Shown: positions 3,085-34,114, numbered from the stretch's first letter. The stretch is DNA of 38,848 bases from a bacterium (GCA_040754625.1 JBFMCF010000061.1:1-38848); one strand, 5' to 3'. Made by a program: numbers and translations. Notes: generated by a model not told the origin, from the letters alone.

Positions 3085-3095
3085 AATATTTGTGT

Positions 3096-3124
3096 TATAA
3101 TTTTATTAGAATTTCCGAAGGAGG
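3096..3124 (+). promoter_or_regulatory. -10 box and ribosome binding site of the antitoxin gene
   Basis: TATAAT at 3096-3101 has no clear -35. AAGGAGG at 3118-3124 lies 6 nt before the ATG at 3131. Confidence 0.4.
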
Positions 3125-3130
3125 AAAAAT

Positions 3131-3553: not shown

Positions 3554-3602
3554 AGAAAAGATAATTCAAAATATAAAAAAATAGAATATAAACTTGCCAA
3601 TT

Positions 3603-4457: not shown

Positions 4458-5897
4458 TTACATTTTTTCCTGCTTTGAAAAAATATTTTTCATAGAGATT
4501 TTAATAAAAATAAGGCATTCAAGAATTAATTTCCTCCATGAATACCCATGAATAATTTTTTTTATAAATTTCAAAACTGTTTTTGGCCTTAAATAAAATT
4601 CACGGTAAATTCTTTGTTTGTAATCCAGCAAGACTTCTTTGCTGAGCCCTTTGGGTATAAAAACAAGGTCAAAGGTTGTAAATTTATCCCAGTCCTTTTC
4701 CAGTGTTCCAAACTCCTCAATTTTTTCATAGCTGTCCGAATTCGGGAAAGGCGTAAAATAAAGGGGGAGGATGTATGTCAGGTTAAGTTCTTTTATAAAA
4801 TTTATTGTTTCTTCCATCGTTTCTTTCGTTTCGGCGGGGGGGGCTATCACGATAAATCCGATTGTTTCCAGTCCCGCTTTGGACGCTGAATCAACAGCCC
4901 CTTTAATTGTCTGTATCTTTGTCCCTTTTTTTATAAAATCAAGAATTTTTTGAGAACCGCTTTCAATGCCGAATGCGATTGACCAGCATCCGGATTTTTT
5001 CATTAACGATAAAAGCTCAAAATCAACGAGATCTGCCCTGGTCTGGCATGACCAGGTTAAATCGATTTTTTCCGACAAGATTGTATTGCAGAATTCAATT
5101 ATTTTATGCCTGTAAAGCGTGAAGGTATCGTCATGGAAATTGATGTCTTTTATTTTATAATTAGCCTGCAGGTATTTTATAAGGCTGATTATATATTTAA
5201 CGGAGTAACTCCTGTAACTGTTTTTTAATCCTTTGGAGTCACAGAAAATGCATTTATACGGGCACCCCCGTGAAGTAAGAAGAATTGAAGAAGGCATTCT
5301 CCTGAATTTTTGTATTGACGGCCGGTATTTATTTGGGAAATTTTGTAGAAGGTGAAAAGAAGGAAACGGCAGTTCGTCTAAATCTTCAATAAAACAGCGG
5401 GCGTCTGTTATTTTGATTTTGTTGCCGGTGCGGTAAATTATTCCTTTAACATTTTCCAGGGGGGTGTTTTTGCTTAAGGTGTCCAAAAGTTCAACGATTG
5501 TGATGTCCCCCTCCCCGATTACACCTATATCAAAATGGGGATAATCGTTCATGGTTTTTTCAGGCAGTGATGTTAGATGGATACCACCGATAATAATCTG
5601 GATACCCTTATCAGAAGATTTAAGTTTTTTTGCAATTACTGCGGCGGTTTCGATGGATAATGTCATAGCTGTGATACCGACAAATTTCGGATTGATCTTT
5701 AATATTTCTTGGACAGTCAGCCCGATACTGAATTTTGATATTTCGGCATCGAGTATCTGGCTTTTAAACCCTGCTTTTTCAGCAGCAGCAGAAAGATATA
5801 AAAGGTTAACCGGAGGGTTATGACTGCCAATGGATGAAAATTCCCGGAGCCTTCTTTTACCTGCAAGCGGCGGATTTATAAAAAGTATATCAATCAT
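4458..5897 (-). CDS. B12-binding-domain radical SAM protein (copy 1)
   Basis: The 479-residue protein has a cobalamin-binding-like N-terminal domain (about 1-150: ILFINPP, VGITAMT, IIIGGIHLTS, IGVIGEGD) and a radical SAM core. The 4Fe-4S cysteines are C212, C216 and C219 in TSRGCPYKCIFC; further SAM-binding landmarks are FHDDTF, and FGIESGSQKILDFIKKGT. The DxHxxG motif of base-off B12 binding is not seen. This large family (BchE/P-methylase-like) contains methyltransferases, cyclases and lipid-modifying enzymes, so the reaction cannot be told. It is the last gene of the purM-PQQ-rSAM-rSAM operon, 7 bp after its paralogue. The C-terminal part (YREFYLRPKTVLKFIKK) is shared with copy 2. Confidence 0.88.
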   Translation of the reverse strand: MIDILFINPPLAGKRRLREFSSIGSHNPPVNLLYLSAAAEKAGFKSQILDAEISKFSIGLTVQEILKINPKFVGITAMTLSIETAAVIAKKLKSSDKGIQIIIGGIHLTSLPEKTMNDYPHFDIGVIGEGDITIVELLDTLSKNTPLENVKGIIYRTGNKIKITDARCFIEDLDELPFPSFHLLQNFPNKYRPSIQKFRRMPSSILLTSRGCPYKCIFCDSKGLKNSYRSYSVKYIISLIKYLQANYKIKDINFHDDTFTLYRHKIIEFCNTILSEKIDLTWSCQTRADLVDFELLSLMKKSGCWSIAFGIESGSQKILDFIKKGTKIQTIKGAVDSASKAGLETIGFIVIAPPAETKETMEETINFIKELNLTYILPLYFTPFPNSDSYEKIEEFGTLEKDWDKFTTFDLVFIPKGLSKEVLLDYKQRIYREFYLRPKTVLKFIKKIIHGYSWRKLILECLIFIKISMKNIFSKQEKM

Positions 5898-5904
5898 GAT
5901 GGGT

Positions 5905-7305
5905 TTAAATAAAATCTTTGTTGGTTTTATTGCTAAAAAGATATTTTAATAAAGTAAAAAAGCCTTTTAAAAGCTCCCCGGGATGACTTAACAGATTTTT
6001 TGCCTGCTTTATTATATAGCTGGGCCTTAGATAAAATTCCCTGTAAAATTTTTTTTCATTCAGGGTCGACTTTTGTTCATCCATCGGGTCCTTGAATCTA
6101 TTTTCAAAAGGGAAAAGATTGAATTGGATTTTGTCTTTATATTTTTCATAAATGTCTGTTCCCGGCCATAGTTTTAACTTTTTGACAAGAATATAATCCA
6201 GTCCGGTTTCTTTTGCAAGAGTGATACTTTCGTTTAAATCTTCCTCTGTTTCTCCCGGGATTCCCGTGATAAAGAAACTGCTTATTTCAAGACCGCTTTT
6301 TTTTATTTGGATTAATTTATCTTTTAAAATATTTTTGTCGATTTTTTTGTTTAAAATATTTAATATTTTCTGGGAGCCGCTTTCAATACCAAGATAAACC
6401 CGTTTACATCCTGATTTTTTCATAGTTTCAGCGAGTTCCGTATCCAGTGTATCTATTCTGCTGAGGCATGTCCAGTTTATATTATTTTTTTCAAGCAGTC
6501 TGCAGATTTGCAAGGTATTCTTTTTTTTAAATGTGAACATGTCGTCCAAAAATCTGATATTTTTTACGCTGAAATATTTAAGATTATGTTCTAGTTCCTC
6601 TTTAATATTTTCCAGTGAGCGGAAATATACTTTTTGCCCATAGGTATGGATGCAGAAACTGCAATTGTATGCGCACCCGCGGCTGGCAGTCATAGTTGTG
6701 AACGGCCGGCCAAGGTATGGTTCCCTGTAAATCTCTAAATTTTTTCCGATAATAGATAAATCGGGAAAAGGGATTTGGTCGAGGCTGACAATTCTTTCTG
6801 ATGCCGGATTGACTGAAATTTTCCCGTCCTTTTTAAACGCTATCCCTGTTATATTGTTAAGCGGTTCATTATTTTTGATTTTGTCGTAGAGAGAGGAAAA
6901 GGTCAATTCCGGTTCACCCCGGATTATGATATCAATAGAAGAATTATTTAATATTTTTTCAGGGAAAACAGTAGGAAAAAAACCCGCGGCAATAATTACA
7001 ATTTTTGGGAATGAAATTTTAATTTCATTAATTGTTGTTAAATCCTCGTTAAGTGAAAAATGTCCCACGTAAGTAATTAAAATATCAGGCTTAGACAATG
7101 AGATTTCACTTAAAATATCAGGAGCCTTTTTCCTGTCCGCGATAGAATCAATGAAAAAAACAGGGTCATTTTTCCATTTTTTTACAATAGTCGCAAGTTG
7201 AAGCAATTCATGCGGAGGGAAATAAAAATTGGGTGAATAATAAGAAGATATATACCGTCTTATTATTTTATCAGGATAAGGAAGATTGATAAACAAAGAT
7301 TTCAT
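5905..7305 (-). CDS. B12-binding-domain radical SAM protein (copy 2)
   Basis: The 466-residue paralogue of the next gene has the same two-domain plan. N-terminal part: SLFINLPYP, DILITYVGHF, IIAAGFFPTVFPE, IIIRGEPE. Radical SAM core: C211, C215 and C218 in TASRGCAYNCSFC, then FLDDMFTF and LGIESGSQKILNILNKK. The tail FYREFYLRPSYIIKQAKNLL matches copy 1 and is typical of this subgroup, in which a membrane-proximal amphipathic tail is common. It lies 17 bp after the PQQ protein. The two enzymes are clearly diverged duplicates, so they may catalyse successive steps on one substrate; that is inference. Confidence 0.88.
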   Translation of the reverse strand: MKSLFINLPYPDKIIRRYISSYYSPNFYFPPHELLQLATIVKKWKNDPVFFIDSIADRKKAPDILSEISLSKPDILITYVGHFSLNEDLTTINEIKISFPKIVIIAAGFFPTVFPEKILNNSSIDIIIRGEPELTFSSLYDKIKNNEPLNNITGIAFKKDGKISVNPASERIVSLDQIPFPDLSIIGKNLEIYREPYLGRPFTTMTASRGCAYNCSFCIHTYGQKVYFRSLENIKEELEHNLKYFSVKNIRFLDDMFTFKKKNTLQICRLLEKNNINWTCLSRIDTLDTELAETMKKSGCKRVYLGIESGSQKILNILNKKIDKNILKDKLIQIKKSGLEISSFFITGIPGETEEDLNESITLAKETGLDYILVKKLKLWPGTDIYEKYKDKIQFNLFPFENRFKDPMDEQKSTLNEKKFYREFYLRPSYIIKQAKNLLSHPGELLKGFFTLLKYLFSNKTNKDFI

Positions 7306-7322
7306 GATATAAAAAATATTTT

Positions 7323-8432
7323 TTATTTATCTTCTGTAAAAGCATAGAGAAAACCATCTGAAGACCCGCAATAAAGTATATTGTCTGCAATTACAGGGGA
7401 CCCCCCTATGTCTCCGCCGGTTTTGAATTCCCATACTTTTTCCCCGGTTGAAGCTTTCAGGATATATATCGAATCGTCCATTGATCCGAAATAAACAAAT
7501 TCCCTGGTGGCGACTGCACAGGTCAGGATCCTGTCTCTTGCCAGGAATTCCCACAAAATTTCTCCTGTCTCAAGATTTAAGGCATAAAGATTTTTGTCCC
7601 AGCTTCCCACAAAGACCTTATTTTCGGTAATTGACGCGGGAGAACAGATTTTATCTTTTAATTTTGTCTTCCAGATTATTTCCCCGTTTTTAGGATTAAA
7701 GGCATATACAAAGCTGTCCCAGGATGGAACAACTATTTTATTTCCGGAATAACCGGGAGAAGCTTCGACGCTGTTACCTGCGCGGTAAGCCCAGTTTAAG
7801 CCGCCTGTTTTTTTATCCAGGGCATATAGATAATAATCCATTGAACCTATAAAAATTTGATCTTCAATTACAAGGGGCGAGCAGACCCATATTTTCCCCT
7901 GGGTTTTGAATTCCCAATTTAGTTTCCCGTTTGATATGCCAACCGAATAAACATAATAATCATAGGAACCAAAATAAACGGAATCCCCGTCGATGGTAGG
8001 AGGGGAATATATTTTGTCCCTGGATTTAAATTTCCAGGCAAGTTTCCCTGTTTCTGCGTCTAAACAATAAAGATGTTTATCCAGGGATCCAAACAAAATT
8101 TTATTTTGAGCGATCGCGGGCGAAGATTGAATCCATGAACCGGTTTTAAATTTCCATTTAAGCCGGCCGTTTAGAGCATCAATGCAGTAAAGATGGCTGT
8201 CGTTTGTTCCGAAAAAAACCATGTTTTTCCAAACAGCGGGTGTGGAACAAATTTCTTTACCTGCCTTGAACTTCCAGATTAATTTTAACGGCGGCCTGGG
8301 GTAATCTCCCCTTATCCCGTTTCGGGCCGCATTTTGGTGAAATGTAGGCCATTCAATGTCCTGGCTATATATTAAAGGCGGGTTGGTGAAGATTGAAAAA
8401 AATATTAATAGGACAATAAAAAAATTTTTCAC
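7323..8432 (-). CDS. Secreted PQQ-like (BamB-type) eight-repeat beta-propeller
   Basis: A signal peptide (MKNFFIVLLIFFSIF...IYSQ) precedes WPTFHQNAARNG, the usual opening of PQQ-repeat proteins. Eight repeats of about 40 residues follow with the pattern W-x-F-x(5)-S-x-P ... V-x-F-G-S-x-D-x-x-L-Y-x-x-D-x-x-T-G, the Trp-docking blade motif, for example LYCIDALNGR, LYCLDAETGK and LYALDKKTGG. Eight blades make a complete propeller. No PQQ-dehydrogenase catalytic residues are visible, so the fold is probably structural or for binding. It lies between purM (11 bp) and the first radical SAM gene (17 bp), so the four genes form one leftward transcript. Confidence 0.9.
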   Translation of the reverse strand: MKNFFIVLLIFFSIFTNPPLIYSQDIEWPTFHQNAARNGIRGDYPRPPLKLIWKFKAGKEICSTPAVWKNMVFFGTNDSHLYCIDALNGRLKWKFKTGSWIQSSPAIAQNKILFGSLDKHLYCLDAETGKLAWKFKSRDKIYSPPTIDGDSVYFGSYDYYVYSVGISNGKLNWEFKTQGKIWVCSPLVIEDQIFIGSMDYYLYALDKKTGGLNWAYRAGNSVEASPGYSGNKIVVPSWDSFVYAFNPKNGEIIWKTKLKDKICSPASITENKVFVGSWDKNLYALNLETGEILWEFLARDRILTCAVATREFVYFGSMDDSIYILKASTGEKVWEFKTGGDIGGSPVIADNILYCGSSDGFLYAFTEDK

Positions 8433-9639: not shown

Positions 9640-9696
9640 ATATCTGTTGTAACATTTTGAAATTTGAATGGTAAAAAGAAATGGAGAGTTGTTTTT

Positions 9697-10800
9697 ATGA
9701 AAAAAATGAAATGGCTGGCTGTTTTTTTATTGTTTTTGAATTTAGGTTGTTACCGGGGATTAATCAAAAGACAGGAGAATTTTCACAAAATAGAAGGTGC
9801 GGTAAGTTATAAAGATGAGACATTGCCTGGTGCCTCAGTCGAAATATTTCTGGAAAGCGGGATTTCTAAAGATGGAATTGATGCAAAACCTTTTGCGCGC
9901 TTAAAAACAGGTCCGGACGGGCAATTTGCGGTTAATCTGCCGCAAGACAGTTATTATTTCAGGGCGTGGAAACCAAAAGATGAAAGCGCAGAAAAATTTG
10001 GCGAAGGGGATTATTTTTGCTATTATGGCGGGAACCCTGTCGCTGTTATTGGTTCCAGGAAGGATTTATTCTTAAAATGCGTTAAAATCCATACATTAAA
10101 AAAAGAAGACAAGTTCGATTTAAGCAAACCGGAATTAACAGGGACTATAATTGATGTCAACGGCAGGCCCCTGGAGAACGCTTATGTATATCTTTTTTCT
10201 GTTTCTAATCCGGATTCCAGGCGTGCGGCTGATATATTGTCAGAGCCCACTTTGAAAGACGGGAGTTTTTCGATTATGTTTGATACTGCAGGGTCCTATT
10301 TTTTAATGGCAAGGAGGCGCCAGAATACAGAGGAAAAGGGGCCTTTAAAAATAGGCGATTATTACGGATATTATTATGGCAATCCTTTAGAAATAAAAGA
10401 AAAAACGAAAAGGCATTTGATATTAGAATGCGTGGAAAAGAAAAAAGATTACCTGCCGGTTAATTTCAATGTGCCCGAGGGAAAATCCGCTATCCGCGGG
10501 AGAATAACGGATAAAAATGGGAATCCTATAAGCGGTGTATTTGCTTTTACGTATAGAGATGAGTTTAATACCGGGAAAAAGCCGGATTATAAATCTATGA
10601 TAACCGGCGAGGACGGTTTGTATACTATCCTTATCGGAGAGCCTGGTTTCTATGTTGTCGGTGCAAGAAAAACACATGGCGGTCCGCCGGAACCAGGGGA
10701 CATTTATGGGGTTTATGACAATGCCAGTAATAATAAGCTTAAGATTAAAAAGGGTGAAGTTGTAAATAATATTAATATAATAGTGGAGGATATCAAGTGA
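9697..10800 (+). CDS. Lipoprotein with three carboxypeptidase-regulatory-like repeats (A)
   Basis: The start at 9697 has GGAGA about 11 nt upstream and opens a lipoprotein signal (MKKMKWLAVFLLFLNLGC); the earlier ATG at 9664 only adds a charged extension. The mature protein holds three repeats of roughly 110 residues, each a transthyretin-like or CarboxypepD_reg-like beta-sandwich: a G-x-V/I-x-D strand pair, a 'G-x-F-x-V-x-L ... Y-Y' hairpin, and a closing signature. The signatures are GDYFCYYGGNPVAV, GDYYGYYYGNPLEI and GDIYGVYDN followed by KLKIKKGEVVNNINIIVE. Two paralogues lie at 15544 and 20255. The protein is probably outer-membrane anchored; ligand unknown. Its stop overlaps the GTG start of the beta-helix gene, so the pair is translated together. 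Confidence 0.8.
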   Translation: MKKMKWLAVFLLFLNLGCYRGLIKRQENFHKIEGAVSYKDETLPGASVEIFLESGISKDGIDAKPFARLKTGPDGQFAVNLPQDSYYFRAWKPKDESAEKFGEGDYFCYYGGNPVAVIGSRKDLFLKCVKIHTLKKEDKFDLSKPELTGTIIDVNGRPLENAYVYLFSVSNPDSRRAADILSEPTLKDGSFSIMFDTAGSYFLMARRRQNTEEKGPLKIGDYYGYYYGNPLEIKEKTKRHLILECVEKKKDYLPVNFNVPEGKSAIRGRITDKNGNPISGVFAFTYRDEFNTGKKPDYKSMITGEDGLYTILIGEPGFYVVGARKTHGGPPEPGDIYGVYDNASNNKLKIKKGEVVNNINIIVEDIK

Positions 10801-12092
10801 CGAAAAGAATAAATTTACTTATTATATTATCAATAATTATATTTTCCAGAAATGCTAAAGCTGTCACGCAATTCACAAATGCAATGATTTCAGAAAACAC
10901 AACATGGAGCGGGGAAATAATAGTCCTTGGGACTGTTACTGTGGGGAAAAATGCAAGTTTAACTATTCTGCCGGGAACTGTTATACGATTCATCCCGCCT
11001 GATGGAAATTTGAATGTTAAAGGGACGTTATTGGCAGGCGGGACATATGAGCAAAGGATAACTTTCACTTTGTATGATGAAAATAATCCTTTGGAAAAAT
11101 GGGAGGGTGTGATTTTTTCTGAGGGAGTAGAAAAAGATACAACAAGCAGCTTGTCAAATTGTCTTATTAAATTTGCAAACACAGGAATTAAATGTTCTGA
11201 AAAGACAATATTAAGTATAGAAAATTGCAGTTTTATTAAGAATAATCTGGGTATTAACATTTTGTTGTCAAGCGATGTCACAGTAAGCCACAGTGAATTT
11301 ATTGAAAATATAAACGGTGCGGTTGCCTGTGAGCAGTCGAATGTAAAGATATTAAATAGTTATTTTAACAATAATAATGATTTTGCAATTACCTGCACAA
11401 AAAAAAGTGAAGGTGTTATAGAAGAAAATTTAATTATAAAGCATCGTTATGGTATTATCTTTGCGTTTGTTGAAACAAAAGGCATTATAAAAAATAATAT
11501 TATCCAGGAAAATGAATTTGGGATTTTTGTTGAAAGATTGCCGGAATTAATGGTTTCCAACAATACCCTGCGAAATAATGACTATGGTATTTATCTTGAA
11601 AGGGGGCCGAAACCGGGTATTACCATGAATGAAATAACTGAAAACAGGATTGGGATATTTATCCGGCAAAATTCCGGTTTAAATGTCAACGATAATAATA
11701 TTTATAATAATAGAGAGTATGAAATAGGGTTGAAAGAAGTGTCCAGTGATATTATAAGAAAAATGAAACAGATTGTGAAAGATAAAAAGGACACCAAAGA
11801 TGTTTTTCCTTGTATGAAAGATGGATTAGATATACCGGATGATGTATTAACTGATTATATTGATGCACAAAGAAATTTTTGGGGCGAAGAAATGACAAAA
11901 GAAATGGAGTTAAAAGGCGATAAGGCAAATATAACAAAAATTCTGGATTTCTATGATAATTCTGAGGCCCTTGGGAAAGACGGCAACATGTATAAGGAAA
12001 AATATATCTTTTACGGTGAATGGAAGAAAACGGCTATAGAAGGGGCTGGCGCGGGAAAAAAGCCTTCATACGGTTTGATTATTACCAAGTGA
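10797..12092 (+). CDS. Secreted right-handed beta-helix protein without propeller
   Basis: The GTG at 10797 follows GGAGG (10784-10788) and overlaps the lipoprotein stop. A signal peptide (TKRINLLIILSIIIFSRNAKA) leads into TTWSGEIIVLGTVTVGKNAS and LTILPGTVIRFIPP, the same cap that begins the four fusion proteins. About ten beta-helix coils follow, rich in N-N-x-I and G-I motifs (IKNNIIQENEFGIFVE, NDYGIYLERG, ENRIGIFIRQ), a NosD/pectate-lyase-like fold. The C-terminal 130 residues (KQIVKDKKDTKDVF..., RNFWGEEM...) differ from the paralogues: no PD40 propeller, only the NFWG segment is shared. Proteins of this fold often bind or cleave polysaccharides; no catalytic residues can be assigned. It ends 10 bp from the convergent paralogue. 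Confidence 0.8.
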   Translation: MTKRINLLIILSIIIFSRNAKAVTQFTNAMISENTTWSGEIIVLGTVTVGKNASLTILPGTVIRFIPPDGNLNVKGTLLAGGTYEQRITFTLYDENNPLEKWEGVIFSEGVEKDTTSSLSNCLIKFANTGIKCSEKTILSIENCSFIKNNLGINILLSSDVTVSHSEFIENINGAVACEQSNVKILNSYFNNNNDFAITCTKKSEGVIEENLIIKHRYGIIFAFVETKGIIKNNIIQENEFGIFVERLPELMVSNNTLRNNDYGIYLERGPKPGITMNEITENRIGIFIRQNSGLNVNDNNIYNNREYEIGLKEVSSDIIRKMKQIVKDKKDTKDVFPCMKDGLDIPDDVLTDYIDAQRNFWGEEMTKEMELKGDKANITKILDFYDNSEALGKDGNMYKEKYIFYGEWKKTAIEGAGAGKKPSYGLIITK

Positions 12093-12102
12093 ATAAGTTT
12101 TT

Positions 12103-13704
12103 TTATGGTATCCACATAAAAACTAAAGGATAAAGGCCGGGATAATTTTCTTCAATTTTACTAAAATCTATTTTTTCAATGATTTTGGATTCCATGTCCA
12201 TTATCACGGTCTGGCATTCAGGAGTTTCCCTGAAATAACAAAGCTTTTTGCCGTCAGGCGACCACATGGGAGGTGCTTCTTCAACAAACGAAGGGGACTT
12301 AGTCATGTTTTTAATATTTTCACCTTTAGTATCCATCGTAAAAATTTCCCAATTTCCCTCGCGGTTGGAAGTAAAAGTTATAAAACTGCCGTCAATTGAC
12401 CATACGGCTGAGCCGTTATAAGAATTATCTTTTGTAAGAAGTACCCATTGAAAAGTTGACCCGTCAAGTAAACCAATGTCCCAGCTTCCCTCCCGGAATG
12501 AGTGAAATAAGATTAAAGGTTCCACTTTCCCATCCGGAGTTACTTTTTTAGATATTTGTGTGCCAAACGCGAAGGTAGCGTTATTTTCGGAATATTTTTC
12601 CTTCCAGTAACTAATTTCAGATTTACCTCTTTTATTTTCCCAATCCCAGGTATTCTCTTTAAGATCGACGCCAAATTTATTTCTTATAAGTTTAACATCG
12701 GTTTGATTTGAAACTATATTATTGTGTATGACTTCAGGTTTGGAGTTTTCCGCAAGAATTATACCGGTCTTGGAATGTGAAATAGTATTTTCCAGGATGT
12801 ATCCCGGCGAGTTGATACAAAATATTCCCGTATTATTTTCTGAAATTATATTGTTGTAAATGATGGGGGAGGAAGAAACACATGTAATACCATAAAATCT
12901 TTTATTATATATTTTGTTTGCGGTTATTTCGGGAGAAGAATTGTAAAGTATAATACTGAATTCAGAAGTGCCTTTAGAAAGGTCGTTATTTATAATTTTC
13001 GGATTAGAAAAGGATGAGCATACAATATCAGCCCCCAGAGTTGTATTTATCGAGTTTTCGCTGATTAACGGAGAAGAATATACGTCGCAATAGATAGAAT
13101 GGCCATAATTTTTCTCCAGCGTATTTTGATAAATTTCAGGGTTTGACCATAAATTGCAGTGAATAGCCGATGTGTAAGTTTCAGCGGTGCCGTTATTTTT
13201 AATAACATTACCGGTAATTTTGGGAGAGGAATGGTTTTCACAGATAATTGCAATATCATTTACCGAGAGTATATTATTTTTGATTAGGGGAGAGGCTTTA
13301 AAACATGCAATTGCGCACCGGGCATTTTCTATACGGGTATATTCTATTATGCTTTCACTCGAAGGTTCTCCGTCGAAAATAATTCCCTGCCAGCTTTTTT
13401 CTTTGTCATTTTCAGAGGTAAAAACTATATGATTGTTTCCATCTCCCTTTGCGTATAAATTTCCATACACGAGAATTTTTATCAATTTATCCCTGTGGAA
13501 AGAAATTACAATTTTAGTCCCAGGTTCAATAATTAGGCGTGAATTTTTATTTATAAGAAGGTCATTTTTGATTAAATAAGGACCTTCTTCTTTTTTCCAG
13601 GTAATATTCCCTTCTATTACAGGTTGGTTGATGGCGGTTTCTGCATGAATTTCGGGTATAAACAATAGAAGAAAAGATATTACAAGATAAAACTTTTTTG
13701 GCAT
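12103..13704 (-). CDS. Beta-helix / TolB-like propeller fusion protein (1)
   Basis: The signal peptide (MPKKFYLVISFLLLFIPEIHA) precedes the cap (ITWKKEEGPYLIKNDLLINK, RLIIEPGTKIVISF) and WQGIIFDG. Beta-helix coils span about residues 120-340, with repeated S-S-P-x-I-x-x-N units (HSSPKITGNVIKNNG, YSSPLISENSI, SSPIIYNNIISENNTGIFC). The last 170 residues carry PD40-like blades: LILFHSFREGSWDIGLLDG, SIDGSFITFTSNREGNWEIF and MWSPDGKKLCYF, closing with LVFMWIP. Only about three blades are present, fewer than in a closed TolB propeller. It is the last gene in the leftward run and the most diverged of the four fusions. Exported; role unknown. Confidence 0.8.
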   Translation of the reverse strand: MPKKFYLVISFLLLFIPEIHAETAINQPVIEGNITWKKEEGPYLIKNDLLINKNSRLIIEPGTKIVISFHRDKLIKILVYGNLYAKGDGNNHIVFTSENDKEKSWQGIIFDGEPSSESIIEYTRIENARCAIACFKASPLIKNNILSVNDIAIICENHSSPKITGNVIKNNGTAETYTSAIHCNLWSNPEIYQNTLEKNYGHSIYCDVYSSPLISENSINTTLGADIVCSSFSNPKIINNDLSKGTSEFSIILYNSSPEITANKIYNKRFYGITCVSSSPIIYNNIISENNTGIFCINSPGYILENTISHSKTGIILAENSKPEVIHNNIVSNQTDVKLIRNKFGVDLKENTWDWENKRGKSEISYWKEKYSENNATFAFGTQISKKVTPDGKVEPLILFHSFREGSWDIGLLDGSTFQWVLLTKDNSYNGSAVWSIDGSFITFTSNREGNWEIFTMDTKGENIKNMTKSPSFVEEAPPMWSPDGKKLCYFRETPECQTVIMDMESKIIEKIDFSKIEENYPGLYPLVFMWIP

Positions 13705-13742
13705 AATTTTAACTTCTGGTACAAAGAGGCTGATTAAAACTA

Positions 13743-13770
13743 TAACGCCCCAATAAAAATTGAGGCGTTA
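13743..13770. terminator. Hairpin between two helix-propeller genes
   Basis: TAACGCCCCAAT (13743-13754) and ATTGAGGCGTTA (13759-13770) form a 12-bp stem with a 4-nt loop and one mismatch (a G-U pair on the minus-strand RNA). It lies in the 92-bp gap after the 13797-15530 gene. The U-run after it is weak (TAGTTTTAATC), so it may be an attenuator or RNA-stabilising hairpin and not a full terminator. Confidence 0.5.
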
Positions 13771-13796
13771 ATAAATTACATTTAATAAAAAAGAAA

Positions 13797-15530
13797 TCAG
13801 TGGGTTATTACGTCACTGCCTTCTTTAATATTGCATGGCGGCGGCGGCCATATATAAAGAATGGTCTGGTATCCCTCGTAACCTTTATTATAAGCAATGC
13901 TGTTAATTCCTATTTTCCCTGAGCCGTCTTTTTCCATCAAGTACAAATTGTCAAATTCATCACGGAACGCTATTTTTTCACCGTTAGGCGACCACGCCGG
14001 GTATTGTTTGTTTGAGGGGTCTTCTGTAAGCTGCAGGGGGACAAGATTTTTGTCTTCCATGCTGATAACATAAATTTCCTGGTTTAACTTATTATCCCTT
14101 TTGGAGGTAAAAGTTATTTTTTTTCCATCGGGCGACCAATTTGCCCACTCATCGCTTGCCGGGTTATTTGTTAAGTTTTTCATTACAGTTACATCTTTAT
14201 TCATTAAATAAATTTCCCAGTTGCCGTCACGATAGGATGAAAAAATGATTTTATCCCCATATATATGCCAGGGATAATTATTGTCTATTTTTGTTTCCCT
14301 TTTGTCTTTTAATAAAGTTGCGTGTATTTTAGGGTATTCATCGAATGATATTTTATCTTTCCTGACAGGGTCAATATTGATTTTTGCATCTTTATTGTTG
14401 ACAAAAACACTCTTTTCAATGTCGGACATGTCGCCTTTTTCCCACCAGTTTTCTCTCGCGTCGATTTCCCCTGTTATTGTGTTTATAGTATTTTTGTCTT
14501 CAAGCTTGATTGCATATCTTTTATTGGGTTTAAAATGGTTATAATTTATTATCGGCCTGGAATCCCCGATGATGGAAATCCCTTCGTTATTTTCTGAAAG
14601 TGTATTAAAAAATATCTTCGGATTGGAATTTACTACCGCGACACCGGAACCGTTGTCCACGATTGTGTTATTGATGACAATACCCGAACTTCCTAGGGAA
14701 AGGGATATGCCGTTCCCATCGTTACTGTGTATATAATTTCCCATGATAATCGGCGAACTTTCGTAACAGGTAATCCCGCAGTGGGTCCCGTTCATGTAAA
14801 TTTCGTTGTTTGTTATCATAGGGTCTGACATCGAGACAACCAGGATACCGCGCCCGCAATTCCAGTGTATGTTATTGTTCTCGATAAGAGGGGCAGAAAA
14901 GGTTGATACGGTGATGCCGTGCCCGATATTCCTTTCCAGGTTATTATTTGATATTCTTGGAGAGGAATATACGCTGCAGGCAATACCGGAGGCTGAAGTT
15001 GTGGTTTGTATCCCGCATTCCCTTATATCATTAAAACTTATTTCCGGTGAAGAAAAATCTTCGCAAACAATTCCCACCTCATTATACCTGATTTGATTGT
15101 TGGAAATTTTCGGCGAGGAATTAAAACAGCCTATGCCGTTAGCGGCACCTTCTATCTGGCAATATTCGATTATGCTTTTTTGGGATTTGTTTAAAACTAT
15201 TCCTCCCCATTGTTTTGCCCTTACTGCTTCTGCCTCGGATTCAGAGGTGAATTTAATTTTCTTTCCTTCAGTGCCCGCGGCAATCAGGGTGCCCTCCACG
15301 ACGAGTTTTACTTTTTCTTTTTCATTCAAAACGAAATTAACGGTCACACCGGGTTCAATGGTTAGAGTTGCATTTGGTTTTACCGTGACCGTTTTTGTCA
15401 CGAGATACGGGCTTTTTTCAAGTATCCAGACGGTATTTTTTGATATTTTCCCGTTGACTTTTGTTATTGCAAACCCTTTGGTTGTAATCAGCATCAAAAG
15501 GCACAAAATACATATTATTAGTCTTTTCAT
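13797..15530 (-). CDS. Beta-helix / TolB-like propeller fusion protein (2)
   Basis: The 577-residue product has a signal peptide (MKRLIICILCLLMLITTKGFA) and the cap TVWILEKSPYLVTKTVTVKP with LTIEPGVTVNF. QWGGIVLNKSQKSIIEYCQIE begins the helix. About ten coils follow with S-S-P-x-I-S motifs (CFNSSPKISNNQIRYN, DFSSPEISFNDI, YSSPRISNNNLERN, GRGILVVSMSDP). After an NWW segment (residues about 360-380, ARENWWEKGD) comes PWHIYGDKIIFSSYRDGNWE and PD40 blades NWSPDGKKITFTSKRDN and AWSPNGEKIAFRDEFDN, ending in ILYIWPPPP. Compared with its neighbours the C-terminus is longer, with a polar CNIKEGSDVITH tail. It follows the lipoprotein at 15544 by 13 bp. Confidence 0.82.
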   Translation of the reverse strand: MKRLIICILCLLMLITTKGFAITKVNGKISKNTVWILEKSPYLVTKTVTVKPNATLTIEPGVTVNFVLNEKEKVKLVVEGTLIAAGTEGKKIKFTSESEAEAVRAKQWGGIVLNKSQKSIIEYCQIEGAANGIGCFNSSPKISNNQIRYNEVGIVCEDFSSPEISFNDIRECGIQTTTSASGIACSVYSSPRISNNNLERNIGHGITVSTFSAPLIENNNIHWNCGRGILVVSMSDPMITNNEIYMNGTHCGITCYESSPIIMGNYIHSNDGNGISLSLGSSGIVINNTIVDNGSGVAVVNSNPKIFFNTLSENNEGISIIGDSRPIINYNHFKPNKRYAIKLEDKNTINTITGEIDARENWWEKGDMSDIEKSVFVNNKDAKINIDPVRKDKISFDEYPKIHATLLKDKRETKIDNNYPWHIYGDKIIFSSYRDGNWEIYLMNKDVTVMKNLTNNPASDEWANWSPDGKKITFTSKRDNKLNQEIYVISMEDKNLVPLQLTEDPSNKQYPAWSPNGEKIAFRDEFDNLYLMEKDGSGKIGINSIAYNKGYEGYQTILYIWPPPPCNIKEGSDVITH

Positions 15531-15543
15531 TTTAACTTTCCTC

Positions 15544-16761
15544 CTATTCTATTTTCCAGGCTTTAATCACAATATTTTTATATACCGTATTTTTTTTGAT
15601 AACAATTGAATGGTCTTCCGTTCCAAAGTAGTATCCGAAAATCTCATTGGTTTTCGGGGCCCGGCCAATAAAATCTCGTGCACCCAGATAAAAAACCCCG
15701 TCTTCTGTAAGATTTATGGTATATCTTCCGTCTTCTTTGGTAACATTGGAAATAAAATCCGGTTTTCCTCCCATGAGCATAAGCATTTTATGACGGGATG
15801 CAAAAACCCGTATCCCTGCCATTGGTTTCCCGTCCATATCTATGACTATTCCTTCTATCCTTGTCGGAGTTGCGTAGTTCGTCTGGGAAATATCATCCAG
15901 GCTGATTTTGGTAACAGCCGGCAGATTGATATTGACAAAATTCTGTTCTGTGACAGTCACGGGATTATTGGGGTAGTAGCAGATATAGTCACCTTCAAAT
16001 AGCGGCCCTGCGACTATATTCCCTGCGGGTTCGCTTGCTCCCTCATGATAAACATTATAAAACATTTTGGGATTGGTTTCTTTCTTTTTCTTGGCTAAAA
16101 TATAATATTTTCCCGGAGTAAGGTTTATTTCGAAATAACCGTTTGTGTCGGTAGGCAAAGATCTTCTGTAAACCTGTCCTCTGAAATCAGCACCTGAATT
16201 TTGATATACAATAACATAACTGTCTATAAGCGGTTTTCCGTAGTAGGTTACAATTCCTTTTATCCCTTTTCCCGCCGCTGAGGGTTCAATAGTTTCTTTT
16301 TTTATAATCTTACTGCAGTTAAAACCGATAAAAACCGGCTTGTCGGAAGTATAAAAAATATTCACCGGGTTTCCTCCGTAATAGGCATAATACTCTTCCG
16401 GCTGCATTTCAAGATTTGTGGTTTTCGGTTCATCCCCTAAAAATTTTCTCGCCACGAAATAATATCTGCCCTCCGGCAAAGTTATGGAATATTCTCCATT
16501 TTCGTTTGTAGGGTTGGAAATTAAAAAAGGAGAGTCCTTAAAATCAGTAGAAGCGTCTTTATATACATAAAGATAAGCGTTTTTTAAATAATTCTGGCGG
16601 TCTAAAGTGACAATTTTCCCTTCAATTGCTATCATAGAAGATTTTTCAGATTGTTTGGGTGCTTCGATTGATTTGTTTTTGATACTGCACCCGGCCGAAA
16701 TTATTGCCAGAATAAAAATATTTATGCATATTATTTTTTGAAATAAATTATTAATTTTCAT
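15544..16761 (-). CDS. Lipoprotein with three carboxypeptidase-regulatory-like repeats (B)
   Basis: The N-terminus (LFQKIICINIFILAIISAGC) is a lipoprotein signal with an acceptable S-A-G-C lipobox. Three repeats follow, with closing signatures EEYYAYYGGNPVNIFY, GDYICYYPNNPVTV and EIFGYYFGTEDHSIVIKKNT. Repeat openings are clear: IVTLDRQNYLKNAYLYVYKD, IKGIVTYYGKPLIDSYVIVY and IEGIVIDMDGKPMAGIRVFA. The second repeat contains MFYNVYHEGASEPAGN before the YY motif, shared in diverged form with lipoprotein C. These sandwich domains usually stabilise or anchor surface proteins. It stands 6 bp after the 16768 gene and 13 bp before the next helix gene, so it is embedded in the operon. Confidence 0.8.
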   Translation of the reverse strand: MKINNLFQKIICINIFILAIISAGCSIKNKSIEAPKQSEKSSMIAIEGKIVTLDRQNYLKNAYLYVYKDASTDFKDSPFLISNPTNENGEYSITLPEGRYYFVARKFLGDEPKTTNLEMQPEEYYAYYGGNPVNIFYTSDKPVFIGFNCSKIIKKETIEPSAAGKGIKGIVTYYGKPLIDSYVIVYQNSGADFRGQVYRRSLPTDTNGYFEINLTPGKYYILAKKKKETNPKMFYNVYHEGASEPAGNIVAGPLFEGDYICYYPNNPVTVTEQNFVNINLPAVTKISLDDISQTNYATPTRIEGIVIDMDGKPMAGIRVFASRHKMLMLMGGKPDFISNVTKEDGRYTINLTEDGVFYLGARDFIGRAPKTNEIFGYYFGTEDHSIVIKKNTVYKNIVIKAWKIE

Positions 16762-16767
16762 ATTTTA

Positions 16768-18483
16768 TTAGTCTTTTTTGCTTAAAGATATTTTGGTATC
16801 AAGTGTCGGTACCCAGACAAAAACTGCATTAAAATACCCATCCGGAGTTTTTTCCAGGCATACTTTATTTTTTCCTGTTGCATCAATAACATGATAATAT
16901 TCTTCGAGTAAATTTTCCGGGTGGCGAAAAGCTATTTTTTCCCCGTCCGGTGACCATGACGGGAATTCCTCATTTGAACTCATATCCGTTACTTGTGTTA
17001 ATGAGTTGTTGCTTAGATTTAGAACATAAATATCTGAATTTCCCGTTCTTTTTGATGAAAATACAATTTTTTGACCGTCAGGCGAGAAAACAGGGTAAAC
17101 ATCATGATAGGGGTTATTAGTCAGATTTTTCAATAGTGTACCTGACGGGTCTGTCATATATATTTCCCAATTATTGTCCCTGAAGGAACAAAATAATATC
17201 TTATCTTCAAAAATATGCCATGGGACATCTTTACGTGCGGGTGATAGAAAAGATGTTTGATTACCGGTGTTTTGTTGAACAAATTCTGAGAGGTTGAATT
17301 CACTATTTTTGAAATTTGAATAATCAATTTTGCCTGCCGGGGATTCATTGCCTGCCAGGTTAACAAAACTTTTTTCAATAACTTGTTTGTCCGTTGTACC
17401 CCAGTAATTATTTTGTAAATTTATGGGATTGGAAAGCCTGCCTATCCGAATAGCGGGAATTCCTTCTTTGAGAAAAATATGGTTATAATTGACAGAAGGG
17501 GTTGAGTTGTCCCAAAATTCCATTTCCGTTAAATTGTTTTCCATGAATAAATTATTCGTAACGGCTGGCGAGGAATAAATGCTTTTTAACCCGATTCCGT
17601 TTTTTGTAAGATAGTTATTGCTGATTACCGGCGTGCAATTAAAAATTGAAGCAATTCCCAATGCCCGCTGTTCATGAATTTTATTCCCGATAATAACAGG
17701 AGAAGCTCCATATATTATGATACCGCAATTACTGCCGTTTCTAAAGAAATTATTATTCACTATTATTGGGCTTGCCTTGGAACAAATTGTCATTCCTCTT
17801 CCAGAAGCATAAGCTAAAAAATTGTTGGCTATTCTTGGATTTGAAAAAGTGGAAACCCCGATATTTGCTCCACGCGTTTTTTCAATATTGTTATCTGAGA
17901 TTTCCGGGTTGGAATAAAGCGCAACGGAAATTCCGCCTGTCTGGCTTGTAAATATGCCGTTTTCAAGTAACTTATTTTTTGTTATTCTCGGTGATGCGCG
18001 GTCTTCACAATCTATTGCCAGTTCGTTGGCATAAAATACATTATTTGTAATTTCGGGGGACCTTGAGAAACAGCCAATTCCACAGGTGGCAAATTCTATC
18101 TGGCAATATTCGATTCGGCTTGCTTCTTTATCTTCGTTTTTATTAAAAATTATCCCCCCCCACACTCCTGGTTTTTGATAATCAGTTGTAAAAACAATGC
18201 GTTTATTTTCTTCACCCCTGGCTATGAGGTCACCATTTATTATAAATTTATTTTTTGCCTCGCCAATGCTTGTTTTGAATTTTATTACAACCCCCGGTTC
18301 GATAATAAGTTTTGCGCCTTTTTCCACGATTACATCTTTCTCAATTAAATAAGGGCTGTCTTTTATTGTCCATTTTCTGTCTTTGATAATGCGATATTCC
18401 GGTGTGGAAGCATGAATAAAAGCCTGCATTAAAGTAACAATAGCTAAAACAAAACAGATTATAGTTTGACATCTTTTTATCAT
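16768..18483 (-). CDS. Beta-helix / TolB-like propeller fusion protein (3)
   Basis: I start at 18483, where AAGGA lies 7 nt upstream and a signal peptide begins (MIKRCQTIICFVLAIVTLMQ...IHAS); the longer frame to 18561 lacks both. The 571-residue product has the cap RKWTIKDSPYLIEKDVIVEK, LIIEPGVVIKF, then WGGIIFNKNEDK, CQIEFATCGIGCFSRSP, and helix coils to about residue 360 (GRGMTICSKASPIIVNNN, YGASPVIIGNKIHEQ). A short NNYWGTTDKQVIEKSF link leads to PWHIFEDKILFCSFRDNNWE, LKNLTNNPYHDVYPVFSPDG, VFSSKRTGNSDIYVLN and FPSWSPDGEKIAFRHPEN, closing in AVFVWVP. Its closest relative is the upstream neighbour at 18579, so the two look like a tandem duplication. Exported; ligand unknown. Confidence 0.83.
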   Translation of the reverse strand: MIKRCQTIICFVLAIVTLMQAFIHASTPEYRIIKDRKWTIKDSPYLIEKDVIVEKGAKLIIEPGVVIKFKTSIGEAKNKFIINGDLIARGEENKRIVFTTDYQKPGVWGGIIFNKNEDKEASRIEYCQIEFATCGIGCFSRSPEITNNVFYANELAIDCEDRASPRITKNKLLENGIFTSQTGGISVALYSNPEISDNNIEKTRGANIGVSTFSNPRIANNFLAYASGRGMTICSKASPIIVNNNFFRNGSNCGIIIYGASPVIIGNKIHEQRALGIASIFNCTPVISNNYLTKNGIGLKSIYSSPAVTNNLFMENNLTEMEFWDNSTPSVNYNHIFLKEGIPAIRIGRLSNPINLQNNYWGTTDKQVIEKSFVNLAGNESPAGKIDYSNFKNSEFNLSEFVQQNTGNQTSFLSPARKDVPWHIFEDKILFCSFRDNNWEIYMTDPSGTLLKNLTNNPYHDVYPVFSPDGQKIVFSSKRTGNSDIYVLNLSNNSLTQVTDMSSNEEFPSWSPDGEKIAFRHPENLLEEYYHVIDATGKNKVCLEKTPDGYFNAVFVWVPTLDTKISLSKKD

Positions 18484-18578
18484 GATGTTTTCCTTACGTA
18501 TTAAAAAAACAGCAAATACCTCATATGTAGTTATACATGATTCAGATGCAAATTGTTTCACTTTTTATTATATATTAT

Positions 18579-20249
18579 TTAATTTACCGGCACCCATAAA
18601 AACAGGGTGCCATGATAACCTTCGGGTGCATTTAAAGTTTTAGTTCTATTTTTACCGTCAGGATCAATTATATAATAAAAAGAGAAATTTTCAAGCTGGT
18701 TAAAAGCTATCTTTTTGCCGTCCGGCGACCAGCAAGGGAATTCTTCATTGGTATTAGTATCGGTTAATTGTGTGATAGAATTATTGCTAAACTTAAGAAC
18801 AGATATGTCCATATTTCCATTTTTACTTGAACTAAACACAATATTTTCTCCATCAGGGGAAAATACCGGATAAACATCATGTGAAAAAGGGTCATCTGTA
18901 AGGTTTTTCAGTTCAGTCCCCCCAAAATCAGTTACATATATTTCCCAATTATTGTCCCTGAAAGAATTGAAAAGGGCCTTGTCTTTATAAATATGCCATG
19001 GTATATTTTGAGTAGAGGTGTAATTATGCGGTGCAATTTGAGCAGAAGATTCATAAGTGGATATTTGATGTGTCAAAAAATCGGAATAATTGGCTTTTCC
19101 CGTTATATCTTCGCCCTCCACTAAGCTTTTAAAACTTTTTCCTATCGTTTCTTCACTTGTAATTTCCCAAAAGTTGCTGTTTAAATTCAGGGTTTCTCTT
19201 ATTCTGCCGAGGCCGATAGTCGGACGCTCTTCTTTAAATTTTATATGATTAAAATTTACCAGAGGAATGGAATCATCCCACAGGGCGATTTCAGAACCAA
19301 TATTGTCCTTAATAACGTTGTAAATAATTGATGGTGAAGATTCAATACAGGTTATCCCTGTTCCGTTTTGATGAATTAAATTATTACTAATCAACGGATT
19401 GCCGCCTAACAATAGAATAATTCCCGAGGATAAATTTTTGTATATGTTATTTGCAATTATTACAGGTGAAGATTGAAAACTAACTATTCCATAAGCAGTG
19501 TTCCCATAAATTTCATTATTTGTGATAACCGGCATTGCATTTGTGAATACAACTATCCCTCTTCCCCATACCTCTCTTATTATGTTATTGGAAATAATAG
19601 GCCGGGAATAAGTGGAAGCACAAATTCCATAACCTTTGTTTTTTTCAATTGTATTATTTATTATTCTGGGATTAGAATATACCGCACAGGAAATTCCGCC
19701 CGGGATACTGCGGAAAGTCCCGTTTTCAGTAAAAAAGTTATTGCTGATAACGGGAGATGACCGGTCCTCACATACAATAGCTACTTCGTTAGAATTAAAA
19801 CTGTTGTTATTAATATCAGGTGAAGAGTTAAAACATCCAATCCCGCATGCGGCATATTCGATGCGGCAAAAACTCATCTCGCTTTTTGTATTTTTCACAC
19901 CTTCGAAAATTATTCCGCCCCATGTGCCGGATAACGGATAATCGGAAGTAAAAGTTATATTATTGTCCTTCTCTCCCCTTGCCCTGAGTGCCCCGCGGAC
20001 AATTAATTTCGGTTTGCTGTTCTTGCTTGTTTTTGTAAAGATAATTTTTACCCCCGGTTCAATTGTAAGAACGGCATCTTTTTTGATAAAAATATCTTTT
20101 TCTATTTTATACGGACTGGATGCTTTTGACCAAATAGTATCTTTTGTAATTACAGAAGATTTTGCCTCCCTGCCCATACCCATACTCGTTTCGGGGGTAA
20201 GTATACATAAAAAGAACGTTATTTTCAGTAAGTTATAAACTTTTTTCAT
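18579..20249 (-). CDS. Beta-helix / TolB-like propeller fusion protein (4)
   Basis: The 556-residue protein begins with a signal peptide (MKKVYNLLKITFFLCILTPE...), then TIWSKASSPYKIEKDIFIKK, LTIEPGVKIIF, WGGIIFEGVKNTKSEMSFCR and IEYAACGIGCFNSSPDINNN. Coils carry DRSSPVISNNFFTENG, YSNPRIINNTIEKNKGYGIC, GRGIVVFTNAMPVITNNEIY and FQSSPVIIANNIYKN. The link (LNSNFWEITSEETIGKSFKS) and the propeller (PWHIYKDKALFNSFRDNNWE, DVYPVFSPDGENIVFSSSKN, EFPCWSPDGKKIAFNQLEN, TLFLWVP) match fusion 3 almost blade for blade. It lies 5 bp after lipoprotein C, and 95 bp separate it from fusion 3. Exported; function unknown. Confidence 0.83.
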   Translation of the reverse strand: MKKVYNLLKITFFLCILTPETSMGMGREAKSSVITKDTIWSKASSPYKIEKDIFIKKDAVLTIEPGVKIIFTKTSKNSKPKLIVRGALRARGEKDNNITFTSDYPLSGTWGGIIFEGVKNTKSEMSFCRIEYAACGIGCFNSSPDINNNSFNSNEVAIVCEDRSSPVISNNFFTENGTFRSIPGGISCAVYSNPRIINNTIEKNKGYGICASTYSRPIISNNIIREVWGRGIVVFTNAMPVITNNEIYGNTAYGIVSFQSSPVIIANNIYKNLSSGIILLLGGNPLISNNLIHQNGTGITCIESSPSIIYNVIKDNIGSEIALWDDSIPLVNFNHIKFKEERPTIGLGRIRETLNLNSNFWEITSEETIGKSFKSLVEGEDITGKANYSDFLTHQISTYESSAQIAPHNYTSTQNIPWHIYKDKALFNSFRDNNWEIYVTDFGGTELKNLTDDPFSHDVYPVFSPDGENIVFSSSKNGNMDISVLKFSNNSITQLTDTNTNEEFPCWSPDGKKIAFNQLENFSFYYIIDPDGKNRTKTLNAPEGYHGTLFLWVPVN

Positions 20250-20254
20250 TATTT

Positions 20255-21478
20255 TTATTCAAGAGGTGAAACTTTAATTATAATGTCTTTTATCACCTCT
20301 CCATTTTTTATAAATATTGCATTATCTTTATCTTTACTGACATAATAACCAAATAAATCTCCTGCTTTCAGAAGTCTTCCCAAAACATCTTTTGCTCCCA
20401 GGTAATATAGCCCGCCGTCCGGAAAGTTAAATACAAATTTACCGTCTTTCCTGGTTTTTTTGCTTAAAAATTCCGGCTGGGATTCTATATTTGTCTTGAG
20501 TCCTCTATACGCATAGGCGTATATCCCTTCAACCGGATTACCTTTTTTATCAACAATTATGCCCTCAACACGTGTATCCGTTGCAGGCACGGTGTATTCT
20601 TTCTCTCCAATTTTTTTTATGCAGTTTAAAATTACATTATTATAATACCCTTTTCCAACTTTTATTGGATTTTCGTTATAATAACAGTAATAATCGCCTT
20701 TTTCCAGAGGTCCGGCAAATTCCTCATTCTCCCTGGTTTCAGCAGCGGGAGCTGACTCATGTATCCGGGTAGGCGCCCCTTTTTTAACTTGTGGAAATAA
20801 TTTCTTTTTTGCAAATAAATAATAAATTCCTTCAGGCAGTTCTATAGTGAAATTTCCATCTTTATCCGTTTGGGAAGACAAATAATTGGGCTGGCTTTTG
20901 AAATAATGGTCTGTTGTTTTAAATACATAGGCATAAGCATGGCTTACAGGTTCATTTTTGAATAATATTTTTCCTTTAATACCGCTTTTGTTTTTATCTT
21001 CTGCTTCTATTATTTTGTTGGAAGGCACTATCTTCCGGCCTAATATTAAATTTAAATTTGTAATTTTACCTTTCAAAACATCTATCGGGTTCCCGCCAAA
21101 ATAAGAAAAATAGTCGCCATTTTCAACCGGCCCGTTTTGGAGCCCTGTTTTTCTTTTTATTGTAATTATAAAATATCTTCCAGGTTCTACTTCTTCCTGG
21201 CAGTATCCATCTTTATCTGTGGGGTTAGATACCAGAAATGGTTTATCAGGGTGGTCCGTTATATCTTTATACAAATAAACAAAGGCATTTTCTGCATATT
21301 CATATTGATCAAAAACTGCTCTTGCTTTGATTAAACCCATGGTTTTATTTTTTAATAACGGGGCCTCTCCCAATAATTGTGTTTCCTCTGTTTTCTTTAG
21401 AATTTCTTTTTTAGCAGTACAATTTATTGAAAAGAGAATGACAATTATTAATCTTATTAGGATTTCAGTTTTTTTCAT
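20255..21478 (-). CDS. Lipoprotein with three carboxypeptidase-regulatory-like repeats (C)
   Basis: The 407-residue product has a hydrophobic signal (KKTEILIRLIIVILFSINC); the cysteine follows S-I-N, a weak lipobox, so lipidation is likely but not certain. Three repeats follow: YEYAENAFVYLYKDITDHPD with GDYFSYFGGNPIDV; IKGKILFKNEPVSHAYAYVF with GDYYCYYNENPIKV; and VEGIIVDKKGNPVEGIYAYA with GDLFGYYVSKDKDNAIFIKN. Before the second signature is RIHESAPAAETRENEEFAGP, the counterpart of the HEGASEPAGN segment in lipoprotein B. It stands 13 bp after the small secreted protein and 5 bp before fusion 4. Probably anchored to the outer membrane as partner of the helix proteins. Confidence 0.8.
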   Translation of the reverse strand: MKKTEILIRLIIVILFSINCTAKKEILKKTEETQLLGEAPLLKNKTMGLIKARAVFDQYEYAENAFVYLYKDITDHPDKPFLVSNPTDKDGYCQEEVEPGRYFIITIKRKTGLQNGPVENGDYFSYFGGNPIDVLKGKITNLNLILGRKIVPSNKIIEAEDKNKSGIKGKILFKNEPVSHAYAYVFKTTDHYFKSQPNYLSSQTDKDGNFTIELPEGIYYLFAKKKLFPQVKKGAPTRIHESAPAAETRENEEFAGPLEKGDYYCYYNENPIKVGKGYYNNVILNCIKKIGEKEYTVPATDTRVEGIIVDKKGNPVEGIYAYAYRGLKTNIESQPEFLSKKTRKDGKFVFNFPDGGLYYLGAKDVLGRLLKAGDLFGYYVSKDKDNAIFIKNGEVIKDIIIKVSPLE

Positions 21479-21491
21479 AATTATCAGAAAT

Positions 21492-22058
21492 TCAAAAAGC
21501 CGGTTCGTCTATGATATCAGAATTATTAATTATTATCTTTTTGCCTTCTATCTCTATGTTTTCGACAGCTCCGCCGTTGGAACTAATGTCGTATTTCTTC
21601 AGATAAAAATTTTCGGTATTTACAATAATTATCCCGTCGCCTTTTGTTCCGATAATCAGGTAACGGCCCAGTTTTTTTAGTAAAAACGGATAACGGTGTA
21701 TATTATCAGGATGAAATATTATAAAAAATTCATCGGACTTTATGTCATGGCCTACCACCGGGCCTTTTATATTTGTAGTGTATATTATATCTCCGTTTTT
21801 TAGCCCGCCTTCCAGGGAATAAGGATATTTGCGTTCATGCCTTTTATATTTTTTTATCTTTATTTTGCCGTCTGAAATACCATTGTTGTATTTGTTCCAG
21901 AAATACTCCGCTAATTCGGGATTATCTTCTTCTTTGGCTGAAGTTGTTGTGCTTTCCTGCCTAAAATTATTTTCTTTATTCTGGGCTGCAATTTGTTTTG
22001 AAAATAAAAAAATAGATAAAAATAAAAAAGGGGAAATTAATTTACAAAAAGATTTCAT
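21492..22058 (-). CDS. Small secreted protein heading the lipoprotein/beta-helix operon
   Basis: I start at 22058, where a signal peptide begins (MKSFCKLISPFLFLSIFLFS...IAAQ) just downstream of a strong promoter; the longer frame to 22133 would overlap that promoter. The mature protein (about 160 residues) has a charged, disordered first part (KENNFRQESTTTSAKEED, GKIKIKKYKRHERKY) and then strands such as GDIIYTTNIKGPVVGHDIK, FFIIFHPDNIHRYPFLLKK, RYLIIGTKGDGIIIVNTEN and KKIIINNSDIIDEP. I do not recognise a family; the strand pattern suggests a beta-rich fold. Being the first gene of the run, it may be a chaperone, adaptor or unrelated passenger. Confidence 0.6.
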   Translation of the reverse strand: MKSFCKLISPFLFLSIFLFSKQIAAQNKENNFRQESTTTSAKEEDNPELAEYFWNKYNNGISDGKIKIKKYKRHERKYPYSLEGGLKNGDIIYTTNIKGPVVGHDIKSDEFFIIFHPDNIHRYPFLLKKLGRYLIIGTKGDGIIIVNTENFYLKKYDISSNGGAVENIEIEGKKIIINNSDIIDEPAF

Positions 22059-22080: not shown

Positions 22081-22108
22081 ATTATATCATCTGATATTGT
22101 TTTGTCAA
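22081..22108 (-). promoter_or_regulatory. Strong promoter of the leftward lipoprotein/beta-helix operon
   Basis: On the minus strand TTGACA (22108-22103), a 16-bp spacer and TATAAT (22086-22081) with the extended TG one base upstream. Both hexamers match the sigma-70 consensus perfectly. Transcription would begin near 22075, about 17 nt before the chosen start at 22058. Confidence 0.8.
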
Positions 22109-34080: not shown

Positions 34081-34114
34081 GTTATTAAATTTTAAACAAA
34101 AACAGGAGATTGCC

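Follow-up and report, generated by a model that had tools for sequence, protein, structure and literature searches.

The window analysed here, i.e., the whole stretch of 38,848 nucleotides, is one entire contig (C61) of a bacterial genome of 2.75 Mb that is distributed over 138 contigs and is 98% complete. It holds two families of exported proteins, called L (strings of transthyretin-like domains) and H (beta-helix proteins). Gene calls place three L paralogs in front of five H genes, in the transcript order L-H and, on the opposite strand, L-H-H-L-H-H, which is the order that a sequence-only reading of the same DNA had given. On the plus strand, L378 (9697-10800; ATG start, with a TTG alternative at 9664) encodes an exported protein with three transthyretin-like/CarboxypepD_reg domains and an atypical lipobox (NLGC), and it overlaps by 4 bp with H431 (10797-12092), the gene of an exported beta-helix protein without a propeller. 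Close to this pair there is a separate minus-strand gene for a PQQ/BamB-type propeller protein (7323-8432), which is adjoined by two tandem genes for radical SAM proteins with B12-binding domains (4458-7305).

The minus-strand operon is preceded by a sigma-70-type promoter match (22081-22108, minus strand; TTGACA-16-TATAAT with an extended -10), and this perfect 12/12 match, read from 22108 to 22081, is the only one of its kind listed in the region. The first gene (21492 to about 22055) encodes a small exported protein that matches no family. It is followed by L407 (20255-21478), exported, with three transthyretin-like domains and an atypical lipobox (SINC), and 5 bp later by H556 (18579-20249), where a beta-helix is joined to a TolB-like PD40 domain of about three blades with a C-terminal W-x-P. 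The next gene, H597 (16768-18483), also encodes a beta-helix with PD40; a GTG start at 18561 is possible, but the ATG at 18483 is likelier and opens a signal peptide, so that the first H-H junction measures 17 bp with the former and about 95 bp with the latter. L405 (15544-16761; three transthyretin-like domains, canonical lipobox SAGC) starts 6 bp after H597, and H577 (13797-15530; beta-helix with PD40, clear ribosome-binding site GGAGG) starts 13 bp after L405. The spacings in front of the lipoprotein-led helix genes, i.e., the 4-bp overlap, 5 bp and 13 bp, are those that had been reported for them (5-13 bp or an overlap). The second H-H junction, of 92 bp, contains a strong hairpin of 12 pairs (13743-13770, minus strand), and beyond it lies H533 (12103-13704, minus strand), a beta-helix with PD40 that diverges most among the four fusion proteins. 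The hairpin (13770-13743) is terminator-like and separates this last H gene from the rest of the minus-strand genes.

Elsewhere in the window, a Group II catalytic intron match (Rfam RF00029, 51.8 bits) was found at the contig start (37-125, plus strand), a TPR protein of 741 aa overlaps a 1098-aa protein without a Pfam match (25103-30567), a nucleotidyltransferase of the AbiEii/DUF2204 kind (30716-31276) gives a weak PADLOC match (8.9e-6), and an HSP90-like protein of 634 aa with a TTG start lies at 34061-35965.

The three L proteins of the window are 29-34% identical over their full length, in agreement with their earlier description as paralogs. Pfam detects CarboxypepD_reg in all three, with L407 below the cut-off there (PF13620) and passing that of DUF4198, and the small beta-sandwich fold agrees with this assignment. 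AlphaFold models consist of three small transthyretin-like beta-sandwich domains (mean pLDDT 80, pTM 0.58), and in fold comparison L resembles strings of CnaB domains, while a sequence search for solved relatives of L gave none that was significant. Scores against TIGR04134, the radical-SAM-associated lipoprotein, were 18-23 bits, under the curated cut-off of 39.8. Across 81 sequences, an R, a K, an R and a D in the middle part and an R in the last domain are near-invariant; the conserved metal-type ligands are limited to one His (75% of sequences) and one Met (64%). Several long L proteins carry 400-800 extra N-terminal residues with no Pfam match (locus L174 9402-11684, locus L189 9159-11435, locus L191 8254-11649 and 386-2734); these could be additional fusions, or their starts may have been called too far upstream.

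Lipoprotein anchors had been taken as a defining trait of the system, and this part of the sequence-only reading was not supported. One lipobox of the window is canonical and two are atypical, and a lipobox is present in 45 of 156 L proteins overall, as counted with a rough pattern by which some genuine ones are missed. Many L proteins of other phyla have plain signal peptides. In Desulfuromonadia-like operons that carry three L-H pairs, N-termini read by eye show a lipobox-like Cys on L in the first pair and on H in the last; the middle pair has none. As far as N-terminal sequences tell, lipidation of L is not a conserved trait; the export signals present on both L and H do bear out the proposal of an exported envelope system.

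Pfam assigns Beta_helix/NosD to all five H proteins of the window and PD40 only to the four on the minus strand. The models of H (pLDDT 82, pTM 0.83) show a helix of about 10 coils and roughly three propeller blades. Among the four fusion proteins, identity over the helix part is 36-44%. The common plan proposed for these four stands as regards the coils, the short PD40 propeller and the C-terminus (W-x-P or W-P in all four); the proposed N-x-W-G link is really N-x-W (NYW, NFW, NWW, NTW), and a G comes next in one of the four. Two propeller types occur on this helix-propeller plan, PQQ/BamB-like in other phyla and TolB/PD40-like in the genome of the window, and the helix-PD40 fusion is a local variant.

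In an alignment of 105 H sequences, no C, H, M, D, E, K or R column is conserved at 60% or above, and what is conserved in H is its repeat scaffold alone, the sequence being otherwise variable. An enzyme role for H was rejected on this lack of conserved catalytic-type residues. This bears on the possibility that L forms a CnaB-like stalk and holds out the beta-helix of H for recognising or processing polysaccharide, which was also the leaning of the sequence-only reading (recognition or glycan-active complexes). Such a role would fit the likeness of L to the CnaB strings of pilins and surface proteins and the best structural matches of the H helix, which are the alginate epimerases AlgG and AlgE6 and phage tailspikes. 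However, these matches concern the generic fold only, conserved catalytic residues on one helix face, as in a polysaccharide lyase or epimerase, were not found in H, the epimerase-like D-x-H-D motif is present in four of the 105 sequences, and the genes that recur nearby are those of electron transfer rather than genes for glycosyltransferases or sugar transporters. We therefore consider an adhesin or glycan-active complex unlikely. To hypothesize from the near-invariant positions of L and the bare repeat scaffold of H, L could be a fixed adaptor and H a variable face.

The pairing of L and H was followed in 67 loci, taken around L or H matches in four genomes of the window's own phylum and around L matches elsewhere. 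There, the gene that comes next after L on the same strand is H in 62 cases. Shuffling the gene labels inside each locus gives 18.4 +/- 3.6 such cases (at most 31), which is a strict control as the local abundance of L and H is kept. The gap is 15 bp or less in 43 of the 62 cases, and a 4-bp overlap is the commonest arrangement. L precedes H in 36 of 46 sampled genomes, and the two adjoin or are fused in 42, so they are not unlinked in most genomes. Three-domain L genes have H within 400 bp on at least one side in 59 of 81 cases and two-domain L genes in 18 of 54; for the two-domain proteins, the partner is often a HEAT protein in place of H.

Natural fusions of the two proteins exist in both orders. 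Gap-free fusions were found with H before L (locus L186 5448-7805) and with L before H (locus L187 6283-8406 and locus L166 8329-10392), while a fourth (locus L185 4788-6641) has a clean junction and two unread residues inside L. A candidate L-HEAT fusion in G003 (locus L100) was rejected because its reading frame crosses masked bases. Since three gap-free fusions join the two proteins in both orders, L and H likely associate physically, and these fusions offer a direct structural target.

It could also be argued that L and H are just secreted repeat proteins, clustered as co-amplified surface genes and having no joint function. Both domain types are common, the two-domain L copies mostly lack H neighbours, and H is variable in sequence, all of which would be expected in that case. 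The 62 adjacencies against 18 expected, the gene overlaps of 4 bp, and the occurrence of either fusion order in different genomes speak against it, however, and make such independence improbable. The pairing of L with H is, in our judgement, very probably functional.

L is present in all four genomes of the window's phylum that the analysis covered, and a scan of 60 relatives confined strong L matches to that phylum. The broad alignment of all L proteins was too divergent for a contig scan, so a subset alignment was used, and it picked up L in one Nitrospirae MAG as well as in MAGs of Deltaproteobacteria, Geopsychrobacter and Desulfuromonas. In even draws from the phyla to which two of these belong, strong matches (E below 1e-30) occurred in 18 of 296 Nitrospirota-side and 29 of 395 Desulfobacterota-side genomes, usually in several copies each; these names label the two draws and do not place single genomes. 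L-H pairing recurs in at least three bacterial phyla.

The genome of the window has ten L matches, which correspond to nine genes (two matches belong to one gene), and five of the nine directly precede H. The two such cases outside the window lie on C1, with another helix-PD40 fusion (locus L028), and on C127, behind an FG-GAP gene (locus L031). The remaining L genes stand in the arrangements DUF362-NapGH-L (locus L029), ResB-L-MoaA-AAA-SpdS (locus L030) and EB_dh-L-HEAT-NapH (locus L032), and a ninth, on C83 (locus L030 15468-16580), is apart from these redox-neighbour sets.

The pairing was said to be conserved through duplication, and it is conserved through speciation as well. In the same-genus genome G001, L378 has an ortholog in the same setting (locus L091 5325-6461, 66% identity) and so does H431 (locus L091 6458-7858, 44% over the helix part), and the pair is retained beside the same PQQ and AIR-synthase-type genes, with the counterpart of the PQQ/BamB-type gene at 2962-4101 of this locus. 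A radical SAM/B12-kind gene is also found near the pair there. Orthologs of H556 (65% identity, locus L101 2-919) and H597 (64%, locus L102 7190-8110) occur in G003, both truncated at contig ends and with no L upstream, their contigs ending on the other side; none was shown in G001. Since each has its own G003 ortholog, on different contigs, the H556-H597 tandem is older than the split of the genomes and has been lost in, or moved between, lineages. A simple duplication of an L-H-H block in the window is, for the same reason, not cleanly supported.

The surroundings of L outside the window point to electron transfer. In Desulfuromonadia-like bacteria (loci L125 and L126; L129 is similar), one operon, read in one direction and often with 4-bp overlaps, contains an FG-GAP propeller protein, H with a PQQ propeller, a membrane spermidine-synthase-like protein, an L-H-L-H-L-H array, an OpuAC-like protein, DUF362 with a Tat-type N-terminus, NapGH and DUF3047. 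Nitrospirota-side loci (L122, L123, L159) have the same kit parts in a different order. A second conserved cluster (loci L032, L093, L131, L134, L179, L189) consists of an EB_dh heme subunit, a two-domain L, HEAT and a NapH-like ferredoxin, mostly with no adjacent H. A third, on the Nitrospirota side (loci L166, L169, L172), comprises a giant protein (tested for locus L172, where it is SBBP/fn3), L, H, L, an OpuAC-like protein, ResB and a PhnD-like protein. In two genomes (loci L180 and L183), multiheme cytochromes with 27 and 24 CxxCH are encoded behind the last H, which could be chance, given the abundance of cytochromes in such genomes. The membrane spermidine-synthase-like protein, without a Pfam match, stands beside L in more than one phylum (locus L126 4360-6774, L125, L128, L030 10997-13375, L096 3154-5529).

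At the genome level, a NapGH-type protein is present in 26 of 29 Desulfobacterota-side genomes with strong L matches against 178 of 366 others (p about 1e-5, not corrected for kinship), and for the Nitrospirota-side genomes the corresponding counts are 9 of 18 and 60 of 278 (p about 0.02, likewise uncorrected). As an exclusive marker of the L system NapGH was rejected, being common in genomes without L. The L and H genes of the window have neither a cytochrome nor a NapGH gene next to them, and the redox link rests on the other loci.

Taken together, L and H could be partner subunits of one exported cell-envelope complex in which they bind each other directly. L, as a string of three transthyretin-like domains, would serve as adaptor or stalk, lipid-anchored in at least part of this organism's copies, and the right-handed beta-helix of H would be an exposed docking scaffold, with a partial or whole propeller as an option. 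Since the genes overlap or abut, the two would be made in matched amounts, and several pairs with different surfaces might be used side by side. The complex would be part of a larger gene kit, scattered in the genome of the window and gathered in one operon in Desulfuromonadia-like bacteria, which may draw electrons from the quinol pool through NapGH-type ferredoxins, the Tat-type DUF362 protein and heme proteins, with the L-H scaffold holding or docking redox partners at the outer periplasm or surface. That L and H contribute the structural subunits to an envelope complex connected with quinol-linked electron transfer is quite conceivable and is the explanation we prefer, short of calling it probable; the redox role as such we put forward tentatively, from the operon partners. 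A wider proposal is more speculative, and we hold it with considerable doubt: at least three phyla may share a respiratory machine of the envelope, undescribed so far and patchy in its distribution, which has L-H as its scaffold and is built of NapGH, DUF362, FG-GAP, the membrane spermidine-synthase-like protein, L-H arrays and giant cytochromes. Its stalks and helices would position redox partners at the outer membrane or outside it, and swappable PD40/PQQ propellers would act as specificity modules.

About a dozen families now labelled 'hypothetical', 'NosD-like' or 'carboxypeptidase regulatory-like' travel as one kit across Desulfobacterota, Nitrospirota and the little-known phylum of the window. 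If the kit is indeed an electron-transfer machine, it would represent a route of anaerobic respiration not yet described, and naming it would make many metagenome clusters readable.

As the sequence-only reading had stated, the pair has no tie to a system known to us from the tested family models, PADLOC or PHROG, and the open-licence papers searched held no relevant description of the component sets and fold combination. No PADLOC model of anti-phage defence matched L or H. Viral origin was rejected, as a close search of viral contigs gave no relatives and PHROG matches were weak; those of H to tailspikes are partial (E 0.0004-0.001), and the annotated neighbours are cellular. Domains of H, in the window and in the related loci, match the NosD_copper_fam, TolB and BamB models, but whole-protein scores are far under the curated cut-offs (at most 46.9 bits against 300 for NosD, TIGR04247; 58-80 against 343 for TolB, TIGR02800), and therefore, by these scores, H is none of these named proteins.

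With the CnaB/prealbumin-fold surface proteins (Gram-positive pilins, SpaA, BcpA), L shares tandem small beta-sandwiches in an exported stalk; it differs in having no sortase signal, and as a whole it superposes weakly on them (TM about 0.11-0.25, normalised by L). TolB binds an outer-membrane lipoprotein. The PD40 part of H aligns with the TolB structure over about 116-124 residues (rmsd about 2-3 A), yet it has about three blades instead of six, stands behind a beta-helix and has no TolB N-terminal domain, and L is not Pal-like.

The nos system combines a beta-helix protein, a lipoprotein and NapGH/NosR-like ferredoxins. By analogy to NosL-NosDFY, which serves nitrous oxide reductase, H could be loaded with a metal or cofactor by the lipoprotein L and pass it on to a redox enzyme. 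However, L is a transthyretin-like string unlike NosL and often not recognisably lipidated, its metal-type ligands are restricted to the His and Met given above, H has no conserved Cys, Met or His column, and, as far as the annotation of the locus partners goes, neither NosL, a NosF/NosY-type ABC transporter nor NosZ was recognised among them. A maturation role of this kind seems to us decidedly improbable, and the envelope scaffold remains our preferred reading. Even so, H shares with NosD the right-handed beta-helix fold and export, NosD is by far its closest solved sequence relative (7o0y, E 2.6e-12), and both systems join a periplasmic beta-helix with a lipoprotein and NapGH/NosR-like ferredoxins.
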